Of a stretch of 64,000 bases of DNA, positions 41,331 to 52,902 are shown piece after piece (position 1 is the first letter of the stretch; the number at the start of each line of letters is the position of its first letter). Source of the stretch: Lachnospiraceae bacterium (lineage in GTDB: Bacteria > Bacillota > Clostridia > Lachnospirales > Lachnospiraceae); contig JAFTPO010000057.1 in assembly GCA_017463225.1 (NCBI GenBank), positions 21,447-85,446 on the forward strand. Reading direction: 5' to 3'. The notes under the pieces are model-generated. The model saw only the letters and a program-made list of their open reading frames with translations. It searched no databases and had not been told where the DNA came from. A program made the translations under genes and the position numbers.

Positions 41331-41532
41331 AGATGGTCGCAAAGTTGAAGGGAAAAATTGCAATAAAAATGCAATAAGAATTGCAAGAAGAATATGTAAA
41401 AATGATAGAATAATGTAGTGAAATATGTTAGAATAAAAACAGTATGTGAACGTGAAAATTTTATTGACAAATGCAAGTGATGGATGTTGATAAAGAGCAT
41501 TCTGCAAAAAATATAAAACATAGTACAAACCA
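41331..41532 (+). other. AT-rich leader between folP and the structured RNA
   Basis: Two hundred bases without a gene. Repeated TTGCAA/TGCAATAA words lie at about 41341-41385. A possible promoter TTGACA (41464-41469), 18 bp, TGATAA (41488-41493) lies about 40 bases before the RNA element; its -10 box is poor. No terminator for folP was seen, so the operon may run through. Confidence 0.35.
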
Positions 41533-41649
41533 GGGCTGGGCCAATAAATTATATTCCGACCGCGCCAGGGTAAGGCGGAGCTGACCGTTTTAGTGTCAGC
41601 GAAGCCTTATCCCTAGGCAGGCCGGCCAGTATGTATGCCTGCCCAGCCC
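41533..41649 (+). ncRNA. Structured RNA element, copy 1 (unidentified class)
   Basis: A 117-nt element closed by the perfect 9-bp helix GGGCTGGGC/GCCCAGCCC. Inside are ATTCCGACCGCG, a variable helix (GGGTAAGGC with GCCTTATCCC), the hairpin GCTGAC-CGTTTTAGT-GTCAGC, and CCCTAGGCAGG followed by CGGCCAGTATGT. The same blocks in the same order, closed by different helices, occur at 52756-52880. It is much GC-richer than its surroundings and ends seven bases before the TGAGG ribosome site of folBK, so it could control that gene. Orientation is assumed plus from context. I could not match it to THF, ZTP, FMN, c-di-GMP or guanidine riboswitches. Confidence 0.75.
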
Positions 41650-41666
41650 GTCGCTTGAGGTATAAT

Positions 41667-42497
41667 ATGGACAAAATACTCATTAAGGACTTAGAAATAT
41701 TTGCATACCATGGTGTCTTAGAGGAAGAGAAGCAAAAGGGCCAACCTTTTTTCGTCTCTGCAGAGCTATACCTTGACCTGCGTGAAGCAGGCATTAAGGA
41801 TGACCTCTCTAAGACTGTTAATTATGCCACTGTATGCGAATTGATTAGGGATATTATGACCAGAGAAAAATTCGACCTTATAGAGGCGGTAGCTGAGACA
41901 GTGGCTGGAGCAATACTTCTTAATTACGAGTTAATTAAGGAGGTACATCTTGTTATTAGCAAGCCTAAGGCGCCTATTCCTATGAGCTTTGATACGGTAT
42001 GCGTTGATATTGTCCGCAAGAAGCATATCGCATATCTGGGGCTTGGCTCTAATTTAGGGGACAAGGAGGGGTATCTTGACTTTGCCATAGATCAGCTTAA
42101 TAAGGATGAATATATTAGAGTGAATAAGGTGTCAGAGTACATTGTCACAGAACCATATGGTGATGTGGAGCAGGACGACTTTTTAAATGGGTGTGTGGAG
42201 ATAGAGACGTTGTACACACCTATGGAGCTTCTCAGTGTTATAAATGATATCGAGCAAAGTGCCGGAAGAAAGCGGCTTATACACTGGGGACCTAGAACCC
42301 TAGACATTGATATTCTTTTATATGATAGAGACATAGTAATGGAGGAGAAGCTTAAGATTCCTCATGTAGAGATGACTAAGAGAGAATTTGTGCTTAAGCC
42401 TTTATTTGAGATAGCTCCATTTGCAGTGCATCCAGGGGTGGGAAAGACTGTTATGGAACTGTATGAAACATTAATGGGAGAAGATATAAAACTATAG
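41667..42497 (+). CDS. folBK: FolB-FolK fusion (dihydroneopterin aldolase / HPPK)
   Basis: 276 residues from ATG 41667, six bases after TGAGG; an ATG 36 bases upstream lies within the structured RNA and is rejected. Residues 1-118 are dihydroneopterin aldolase (IKDLEIFAYHGVLEEEKQKG, VNYATVCELI, KPKAPIP). Residues about 120-276 are hydroxymethyl-dihydropterin pyrophosphokinase (LGLGSNLGDKEGYL, DDFLNGCVEIET, WGPRTLDIDILLYD, IPHVEMTKREFVLKPL). Consecutive folate steps are fused, as in several Firmicutes. folE is not in the window. Confidence 0.95.
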   Translation: MDKILIKDLEIFAYHGVLEEEKQKGQPFFVSAELYLDLREAGIKDDLSKTVNYATVCELIRDIMTREKFDLIEAVAETVAGAILLNYELIKEVHLVISKPKAPIPMSFDTVCVDIVRKKHIAYLGLGSNLGDKEGYLDFAIDQLNKDEYIRVNKVSEYIVTEPYGDVEQDDFLNGCVEIETLYTPMELLSVINDIEQSAGRKRLIHWGPRTLDIDILLYDRDIVMEEKLKIPHVEMTKREFVLKPLFEIAPFAVHPGVGKTVMELYETLMGEDIKL

Positions 42498-52746: not shown

Positions 52747-52755
52747 AGGGAATTA

Positions 52756-52880
52756 GAAAAGGACGAGGCAATAAATTGCATTCCGACCGCGACAGTGGTC
52801 GGGACTAAGCTGACCGTGTTAGTGTCAGCGTGGACCGACCCTAGGCAGGTCGGCCAGTATGTGAATACCTCGTCCTTTTC
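52756..52880 (+). ncRNA. Structured RNA element, copy 2 (unidentified class)
   Basis: A 125-nt element closed by the perfect 13-bp helix GAAAAGGACGAGG/CCTCGTCCTTTTC, unrelated in sequence to the outer helix of copy 1. The interior repeats copy 1 in order: CAATAAATT, ATTCCGACCGCG, a variable helix (GGTCGG with CCGACC), the hairpin GCTGAC-CGTGTTAGT-GTCAGC, then CCCTAGGCAGG and CGGCCAGTATGT. The base changes between copies keep pairing. It lies between a terminator and the promoter of the ABC-F gene, so it may be a free-standing small RNA, or a mobile structured element. The short open frame across it is not a gene. Confidence 0.75.
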
Positions 52881-52902
52881 GTCTGGATAAAGGATTTGCT
52901 TA

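Follow-up and report, generated by a model that had tools for sequence, protein, structure and literature searches.

Two intergenic elements in the window, the 64,000-nt stretch of DNA analysed here, are likely members of a clade-specific, dispersed, palindromic miniature DNA element, whose closing stem would serve as a (bidirectional) terminator and whose core would be carried along as a passenger. We see in it a probable small mobile palindrome and not a folate switch, its mobility being what we infer from comparing sequences. We regard it as a new family of dispersed palindromic elements, notable for its steady loop motifs and freely changing stems, and no published description of it was found in the openly accessible literature.

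The two elements lie 11.2 kb apart on the forward strand at positions 41533-41649 (copy 1) and 52756-52880 (copy 2), where the original prediction had placed them. The element, about 115-130 bp in length, forms a long rod composed of the closing stem P1, a linker, P2, a conserved internal loop, P3, and P4 with a conserved loop. Copy 1 has a type A core and is located between a folP-like gene and folBK; the covariance model R1 matches it at 41526-41655 with 143.1 bits. Copy 2, with a type B core, lies before an ABC-ATPase gene (53000) and is matched at 52753-52882 with 115.0 bits, R1 having been built from these two copies and six others. In copy 1, P1 consists of GGGCTGGGC (41533-41541) and GCCCAGCCC (41641-41649), P2 of CCGACC (41556-41561) and a 3' arm at 41620-41625, P3 of AGGGTAAGGC (41567-41576) and a 3' arm at 41604-41614, and P4 is the hairpin GCTGAC-CGTTTTAGT-GTCAGC (41580-41600). 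The respective parts of copy 2 are GAAAAGGACGAGG (52756-52768) and CCTCGTCCTTTTC (52868-52880), the latter with a terminator-like T run, for P1, CCGACC (52783-52788) and GGTCGG (52848-52853) for P2, GGTCGG (52797-52802) and CCGACC (52835-52840) for P3, and the hairpin GCTGAC...GTCAGC (52809-52829) for P4. The closing helices of 9 bp and 13 bp are perfectly paired, as had been claimed; the description departs from the sequence in the inner helix P2 of copy 1 (CCGACC/GGCCGG), which contains one A-C mismatch, a position that is paired (GGTCGG) in the ortholog of the sister species G013. Since the P2 and P3 arms of copy 2 (52756-52880) are alike, both being CCGACC/GGTCGG, its predicted fold consists of two side-by-side hairpins in place of the rod. 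Compared with shuffled sequences, folding z-scores were -6.5 (copy 1) and -7.3 (copy 2) on the + strand and -6.0 and -7.5 on the - strand. Searched exactly, the words ATTCCGACCGCG and CCCTAGGCAGG each occur just twice in the window, in every case within the two elements; as CCCTAGGCAGG with one mismatch reached two matches in 9 of 100 shuffles, short words alone are weak evidence, and it is the same motif order in both elements together with the covariance-model match at both that excludes chance.

The class had gone unrecognised in the original prediction, and the Rfam scan proposed there assigned the element to no family. At the gathering score neither element was matched in a scan of the whole window, permissive scans of both copies gave four matches far under threshold (the best being mir-127 with 21.4 of 60 bits), and eight further element loci had no match at E up to 0.5. 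A riboswitch or other known RNA was rejected on the basis of these scans at gathering and permissive thresholds. The sole match in the window at the gathering score is an FMN riboswitch (RF00050, 17192-17320, + strand, 110 bits), an ordinary member of its family.

In the window's own genome (G000, 2.77 Mb), nine copies were picked up by a 14-base pattern allowing one mismatch, and eight of them were aligned, the ninth (L006) being identical to L004 over 160 bases; R1 was built from these eight, with a structure drawn by hand. Building and searching such a model had been proposed as a check, and in G000 it yielded 58 matches (E of at most 1). By our reading these comprise 42 full copies (scores of at least 71 bits), 13 weaker hits to the opposite strand of the same palindromes, and three short or weak ones. 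Copies existing only as protein-free mobile repeats had been named beforehand as an argument against a regulatory RNA, and protein-free dispersed repeats are indeed what the 42 full copies are. R1 matched 7 of 61 genomes, namely G000 and 6 of 36 congeners (G013 with 48, G003 with 42, G009 with 33, G031 with 15, G032 with 6, and G012 with 2 matches, numbers that may count the opposite strand of the same palindromes), whereas the remaining 30 congeners and all 24 genomes of other genera had no match at the stricter filters of this search. Among 397 genomes sampled across the Lachnospiraceae, with at most eight candidates per genome scored, so that weak copies could escape, the only match was G000 itself. 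A 16-base core pattern occurs in at least 92 stretches of named genomes, and among the 80 stretches listed and three viral loci, R1 matches were confined to Lachnospiraceae RGIG6221, SIG296, SIG302, and RGIG8543. In viral contigs, this pattern was present in three, none of them with a model match, and copy 1 had no blastn match in plasmid and phage collections, on which basis a plasmid or phage origin was rejected. Two pairs of G000 loci, L013/L014 (contigs C22/C26) and L018/L022 (C16/C36), have near-identical flanks on two contigs, apparently duplicates or strain variants of each other, which suggests mixed strains in the assembly or a recent rearrangement; L018 bears an extra 3' part of the element, and a similar extra part was seen in G031 (L349).

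The copies are mostly located at the 3' ends of genes, often between convergent genes, and in either orientation. Of the 45 G000 copies (42 full, 3 short), 20 are in convergent, 8 in sense, 9 in antisense, and 2 in divergent position, with 6 edge cases, while the 38 loci of G013 comprise 22, 8, 5, 1, and 2, respectively; the classes were assigned by a crude ORF rule, with edge referring to contig or stretch ends, and an earlier pass over the G000 copies gave 21, 11, 9, 1, and 3 in the same order. A facing stop codon lies within 20 nt of the element for 35 of 62 distances in G000 and 28 of 59 in G013. In 146 distinct copies, the first eight bases contain 4.5 A and the last eight 3.9 T on average, with at least four A in the first eight in 112 copies and at least four T in the last eight in 87; copy 1 is without a T run after P1. 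A-rich to the left and T-rich to the right, P1 resembles a bidirectional terminator, and with a GC-rich stem, a stop codon before it, a T run, and an A run, it displays the sequence features of an intrinsic terminator, which probably is usable from both sides and ends transcription. The neighbouring genes are of varied roles: when 30 neighbour proteins of 24 of the 42 full copies, the window pair not counted among the 24, were scanned against Pfam, 27 matched families such as phosphofructokinase, isopropylmalate synthase, hydrogenase, LuxC, PTS EIIC, phosphate acetyltransferase, and histidine kinases, and three matched none.

Comparison of orthologous sites in the sister species showed how freely the core varies. 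At L015/L207, L066/L236, and L242/L397 (G013/G003), the core is inverted at the same site while P1 is the same or nearly so, and at L025/L396 and L072/L386 the opposite orientation goes along with another P1. L071 and L237 have a near-identical P1 and downstream flank with different core types, so to speak an exchanged core. Nested copies occupy the tip where P3/P4 of the older copy should be (L013, L020, L028, and L033), all four oriented as the outer copy, as judged by eye. Short forms comprise L250 (L072 site) and two in G009, one at folBK and one at the site of L037; going by the G013 copy, the part missing from the latter is bordered by a CCAAT repeat. The G009 copy at the site of L016 (L343/L362) is a perfected palindrome, its two arms being exact reverse complements of each other even through the normally unpaired internal loop. 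A simple pattern search revealed this template-switching footprint in 1 of 148 copies.

Other sites carry P1 without a core, i.e., L025/L245, L234/L263, the near-identical L240/L260, and the L066 site in G031. At the copy 2 site, the core-less stem is AAAAGGACGAGG/CCTCGTC in G009 and AAAAAGACGAGG/CCTCGTC in G003, and this stem (GACGAGG/CCTCGTC) is nearly the same as P1 of copy 2; this site, L025, and L234 are consistent with P1 being a pre-existing host terminator invaded by the core. When 20 G000 sites were queried in G013, giving 16 matches of which one weak match was omitted, the remaining 15 showed, by eye, 10 core-less hairpins (one imperfect), two altered elements, and three cases with no clear hairpin; the reverse comparison of 16 G013 sites in G000, with 12 matches of which three to element sequence were omitted, gave six hairpins, one remnant, and two sites with none. 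The element mostly occupies terminator positions, yet at many sites the sister's hairpin stem is unrelated. Against P1 being a pre-existing host terminator, plain hairpins seldom contain the recurring P1 words: 5 of 93 distinct hairpins did so in 688 kb of clade loci, which overlap and are enriched for element sites (four of the five were at such sites), and in 144 kb from other congeners none of 15 did. At L220, compared with L264, the sister's terminator persists beside the element, so that P1 of L220 was not made from it. Insertion of the core into terminators and loss of the core must both have happened, given that the family is limited to a single clade and that, on the other hand, several of the empty loops resemble leftovers of the linker.

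Further repeats were noticed, the first two of them by eye. A second palindromic repeat, with ends of approximately TGAGTC(A/G)TGC ... GCA(C/T)GACT, is present at terminator positions in the L248 insert (at the G013 ortholog of L074), in L360 and L361 (the L023 site), and in L385 (G009), and once inside a P4 loop of the present element. A third repeat-like stretch (CGCCGAAGGCGATAGTGAAAGTTGTGCCGGTACATA... and variants) lies beside L038/L229, L080, L231, and L033, and in L359 (G009, L066 site) a repeat that bears AACTCATGCGTAGCATGAGTTAGCTC hairpins is arrayed in tandem.

The conserved core with compensating helices, on which the original prediction was founded, was confirmed on 80 copies, with double changes at 25 of 31 pairs. 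In this alignment (A2), 93% of cells pair and 420 are double-change cells, compared with 103.5 in shuffles (0 of 500 reaching the observed number) and at most 97 in slid controls, figures that are flattered by the alignment having been fitted to the structure; alignment A1, made without the structure, agrees (9 of 31 pairs, 15 cells vs. 3.8). P4 pairs in 100% of A1 and 99.6% of A2. The loop motifs are steadier than the stems, with GCG[AC]CAG in 121, CCTAGGCAG in 115, and ACCGT in 128 of 146 copies, while P1 takes 84 different 9-mers in the same copies, a number taken at a fixed offset and inflated by register shifts, the commonest being GGGCTGTGC (24 of 146).

Selection on an RNA strand should give a clear excess of G-U over A-C cells; the two are about equal (P1 21/13, P2 9/8, P3 29/32, blurred by an alternative register, and P4 3/2), so that neither strand looks favoured. 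By folding energy, a weak test, the + strand was lower in 92 of 147 cases with a mean difference of 1.1 kcal/mol. From G013, 38 loci with 39 copies were fetched out of 48 matches, which provided counterparts with the same flanks for 25 of the 45 G000 copies; 17 of the 25 were compared, eight being omitted as inverted (two), duplicates (two), an adjacent pair, or nested (two). In these 17 pairs, for which fold labels are rough, 39 of 685 base pairs had changed on both sides compared with 5.5 expected if independent, and 45 on one side compared with 112 expected; the one-sided changes resulted in 1 G-U, 10 A-C, 27 other mismatches, and 7 Watson-Crick pairs. Unpaired core positions had diverged by 9.4% and flanks by 10.0%.

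These observations also bear on the possibility that the copies are a functional structured 3' UTR RNA, either an mRNA stabiliser or a 3'-derived small RNA, whose loops bind protein or RNA and whose copies were spread and kept for that function. Steady loop motifs, stems changing with compensation, and the frequent location within 20 nt of a stop codon would all suit such an RNA. However, with G-U and A-C cells similar in number no strand is preferred, copies in tandem genes are both sense and antisense, and the core is inverted, shortened, or lost at orthologous sites, which makes this explanation doubtful. The original reading as a functional RNA is likewise not supported, in view of 42 full copies dispersed at varied genes with no favoured strand, and of cores in opposite orientations at the same site.

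We therefore return to the dispersed palindromic DNA element. Here, the P1 terminator stem would be the part kept by the host, and the core a passenger that can be dispensed with, belonging to a miniature element that is non-autonomous or was once mobile. Pairing would be kept largely by templated palindrome repair at the DNA level and by exchange between copies, with selection on the terminator stem also helping and selection on a ligand-binding or catalytic RNA contributing less, and whatever spreads the element probably recognises it by the conserved loops. Several observations count against this explanation: loops steadier than stems are what RNA selection would also give, the unpaired core is no more conserved than the flanks, the 27 one-sided changes mentioned above gave mismatches other than A-C, copy 1 lacks the T run, and some core-less sites carry unrelated hairpins or none.

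How the element spreads is addressed by two further proposals. Tentatively, and with rather low probability, it may be a mobile hairpin, in which folded single-stranded DNA (or RNA) would be recognised via the conserved loops, leaving the stems free to vary, and a putative enzyme would insert it, facing either way, at terminator hairpin tips. The same stems with and without a core and the nested copies in hairpin tips would suit such targeting, while the linker-like remnants and short direct repeats at sites suit core loss equally well. If true, the host's terminator stem would become the closing stem, and the element would be mobile by a strategy that needs no terminal repeats. Neither a transposase nor a signature of terminal repeats was found, so that mobility is indirect; Y1_Tnp had no match in G000, G013, G003, and G009 and one partial match in G031, and RVT_1 none in the former four and two in G031, the assemblies of G009 and G003 being 82% and 87% complete. 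A Y1 transposase or a reverse transcriptase was rejected as the mover, neither having been found in these four copy-rich genomes, and the element qualifies neither as REP with RAYT nor as a relic of a retroelement or group II intron.

A classical MITE, i.e., a DDE transposon relative with an internal deletion, which would be moved in trans via P1 as terminal inverted repeats, is unlikely. Its palindromic ends, its dispersal, its limitation to certain species, and the recurrence of one commonest P1 9-mer would agree with such an origin, as would what looks by eye like a 7-base repeat (ATAGAAT/ATAAAAT) at the element ends of L220 compared with L264, which may be a target duplication. Against this, the ends of the element vary most and the middle least, even though the number of P1 words is inflated, and visual inspection of the compared sites, L220 apart, showed no clear duplication of the target; conserved terminal inverted repeats and clear target-site duplications, the hallmarks of MITEs, are thus not apparent.

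The proposal that copy 1 gates a folate gene started from an accurate description of its surroundings. Copy 1 ends seven bases before the GAGG (41657-41660) of folBK, which begins at 41667 and by its matches is a FolB-HPPK fusion, and the preceding gene matches Pterin_bind (folP-like). The full element is present at this site in G000 and G013, G009 has a short form without P3/P4, G003 has another core type and another P1, and G031 has no element, so that the core is shortened or missing in sister species, which a folate switch would hardly tolerate, and no folate role is supported. No folate-biosynthesis family occurs among the 30 neighbour proteins of the 24 other copies, L011 adjoining AICARFT/IMPCHase, a folate-using purine enzyme. 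A simple scan near copy 1 revealed no sigma-70-like promoter on the + strand and no excess over shuffles; we would guess that copy 1 is within the folBK leader if folBK has its own upstream promoter, and an incidental effect on folBK is possible. A cis-regulatory RNA (riboswitch or attenuator) gating folBK is therefore very improbable, despite the proximity to the ribosome site and some form of the element in four of five copy-rich species, given the variation at this very site and the non-folate neighbours elsewhere.

With its conserved loops, strong covariation, and lack of an Rfam match, the element resembles a textbook new riboswitch; copy number, strand symmetry, and orthologous sites reveal a dispersed palindrome. 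This is a warning for covariation-based RNA discovery, as templated palindrome repair and exchange between copies can imitate RNA selection. Moreover, close species offer a natural series in which the same terminators carry the element complete, inverted, nested, shortened, or stripped of its core, which lets the spread of terminator-borne repeats be studied directly.

The element is closest in kind to palindromic repeats such as EFAR, bcr1, and ERIC. EFAR of Enterococcus faecalis are L-shaped double hairpins which target stem-loop sites and retain at their own ends a portion of the stem they have entered, and Efa-1 is, at a guess, probably of the same family. Like EFAR, our repeats are dispersed palindromic miniature elements without genes, but they form a single rod with conserved internal loops and reside in another host, and the likeness is one of description. 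EFAR is listed among bacterial MITEs (PMC3733652), and Efa-1 of Cozzuto et al. was given as 163 bp with 65 copies (PMC2267715). The repeats bcr1 (Bacillus cereus), ERIC, YPAL, RUP, BOX, and NEMIS are similarly repeated and foldable, and each was described from a single bacterial group (PMC3733652, PMC2267715). MITEs are described as having terminal inverted repeats (PMC3733652), whereas in our element it is the outer stem that varies, the middle being steadier. REP elements with RAYT transposases are repeated extragenic palindromes as well, but our element is much longer than the 20-40 bp of REP (PMC3733652), and the four copy-rich genomes gave no Y1_Tnp match. Finally, footprints of template switching in RNA hairpins comprise multiple simultaneous compensatory changes, inverted loops, and perfected stems (PMC8794818), and our element likewise displays loops that are inverted, double changes in numbers, and stems that have been perfected, although RNA genes are concerned there and a dispersed DNA repeat at terminators here.
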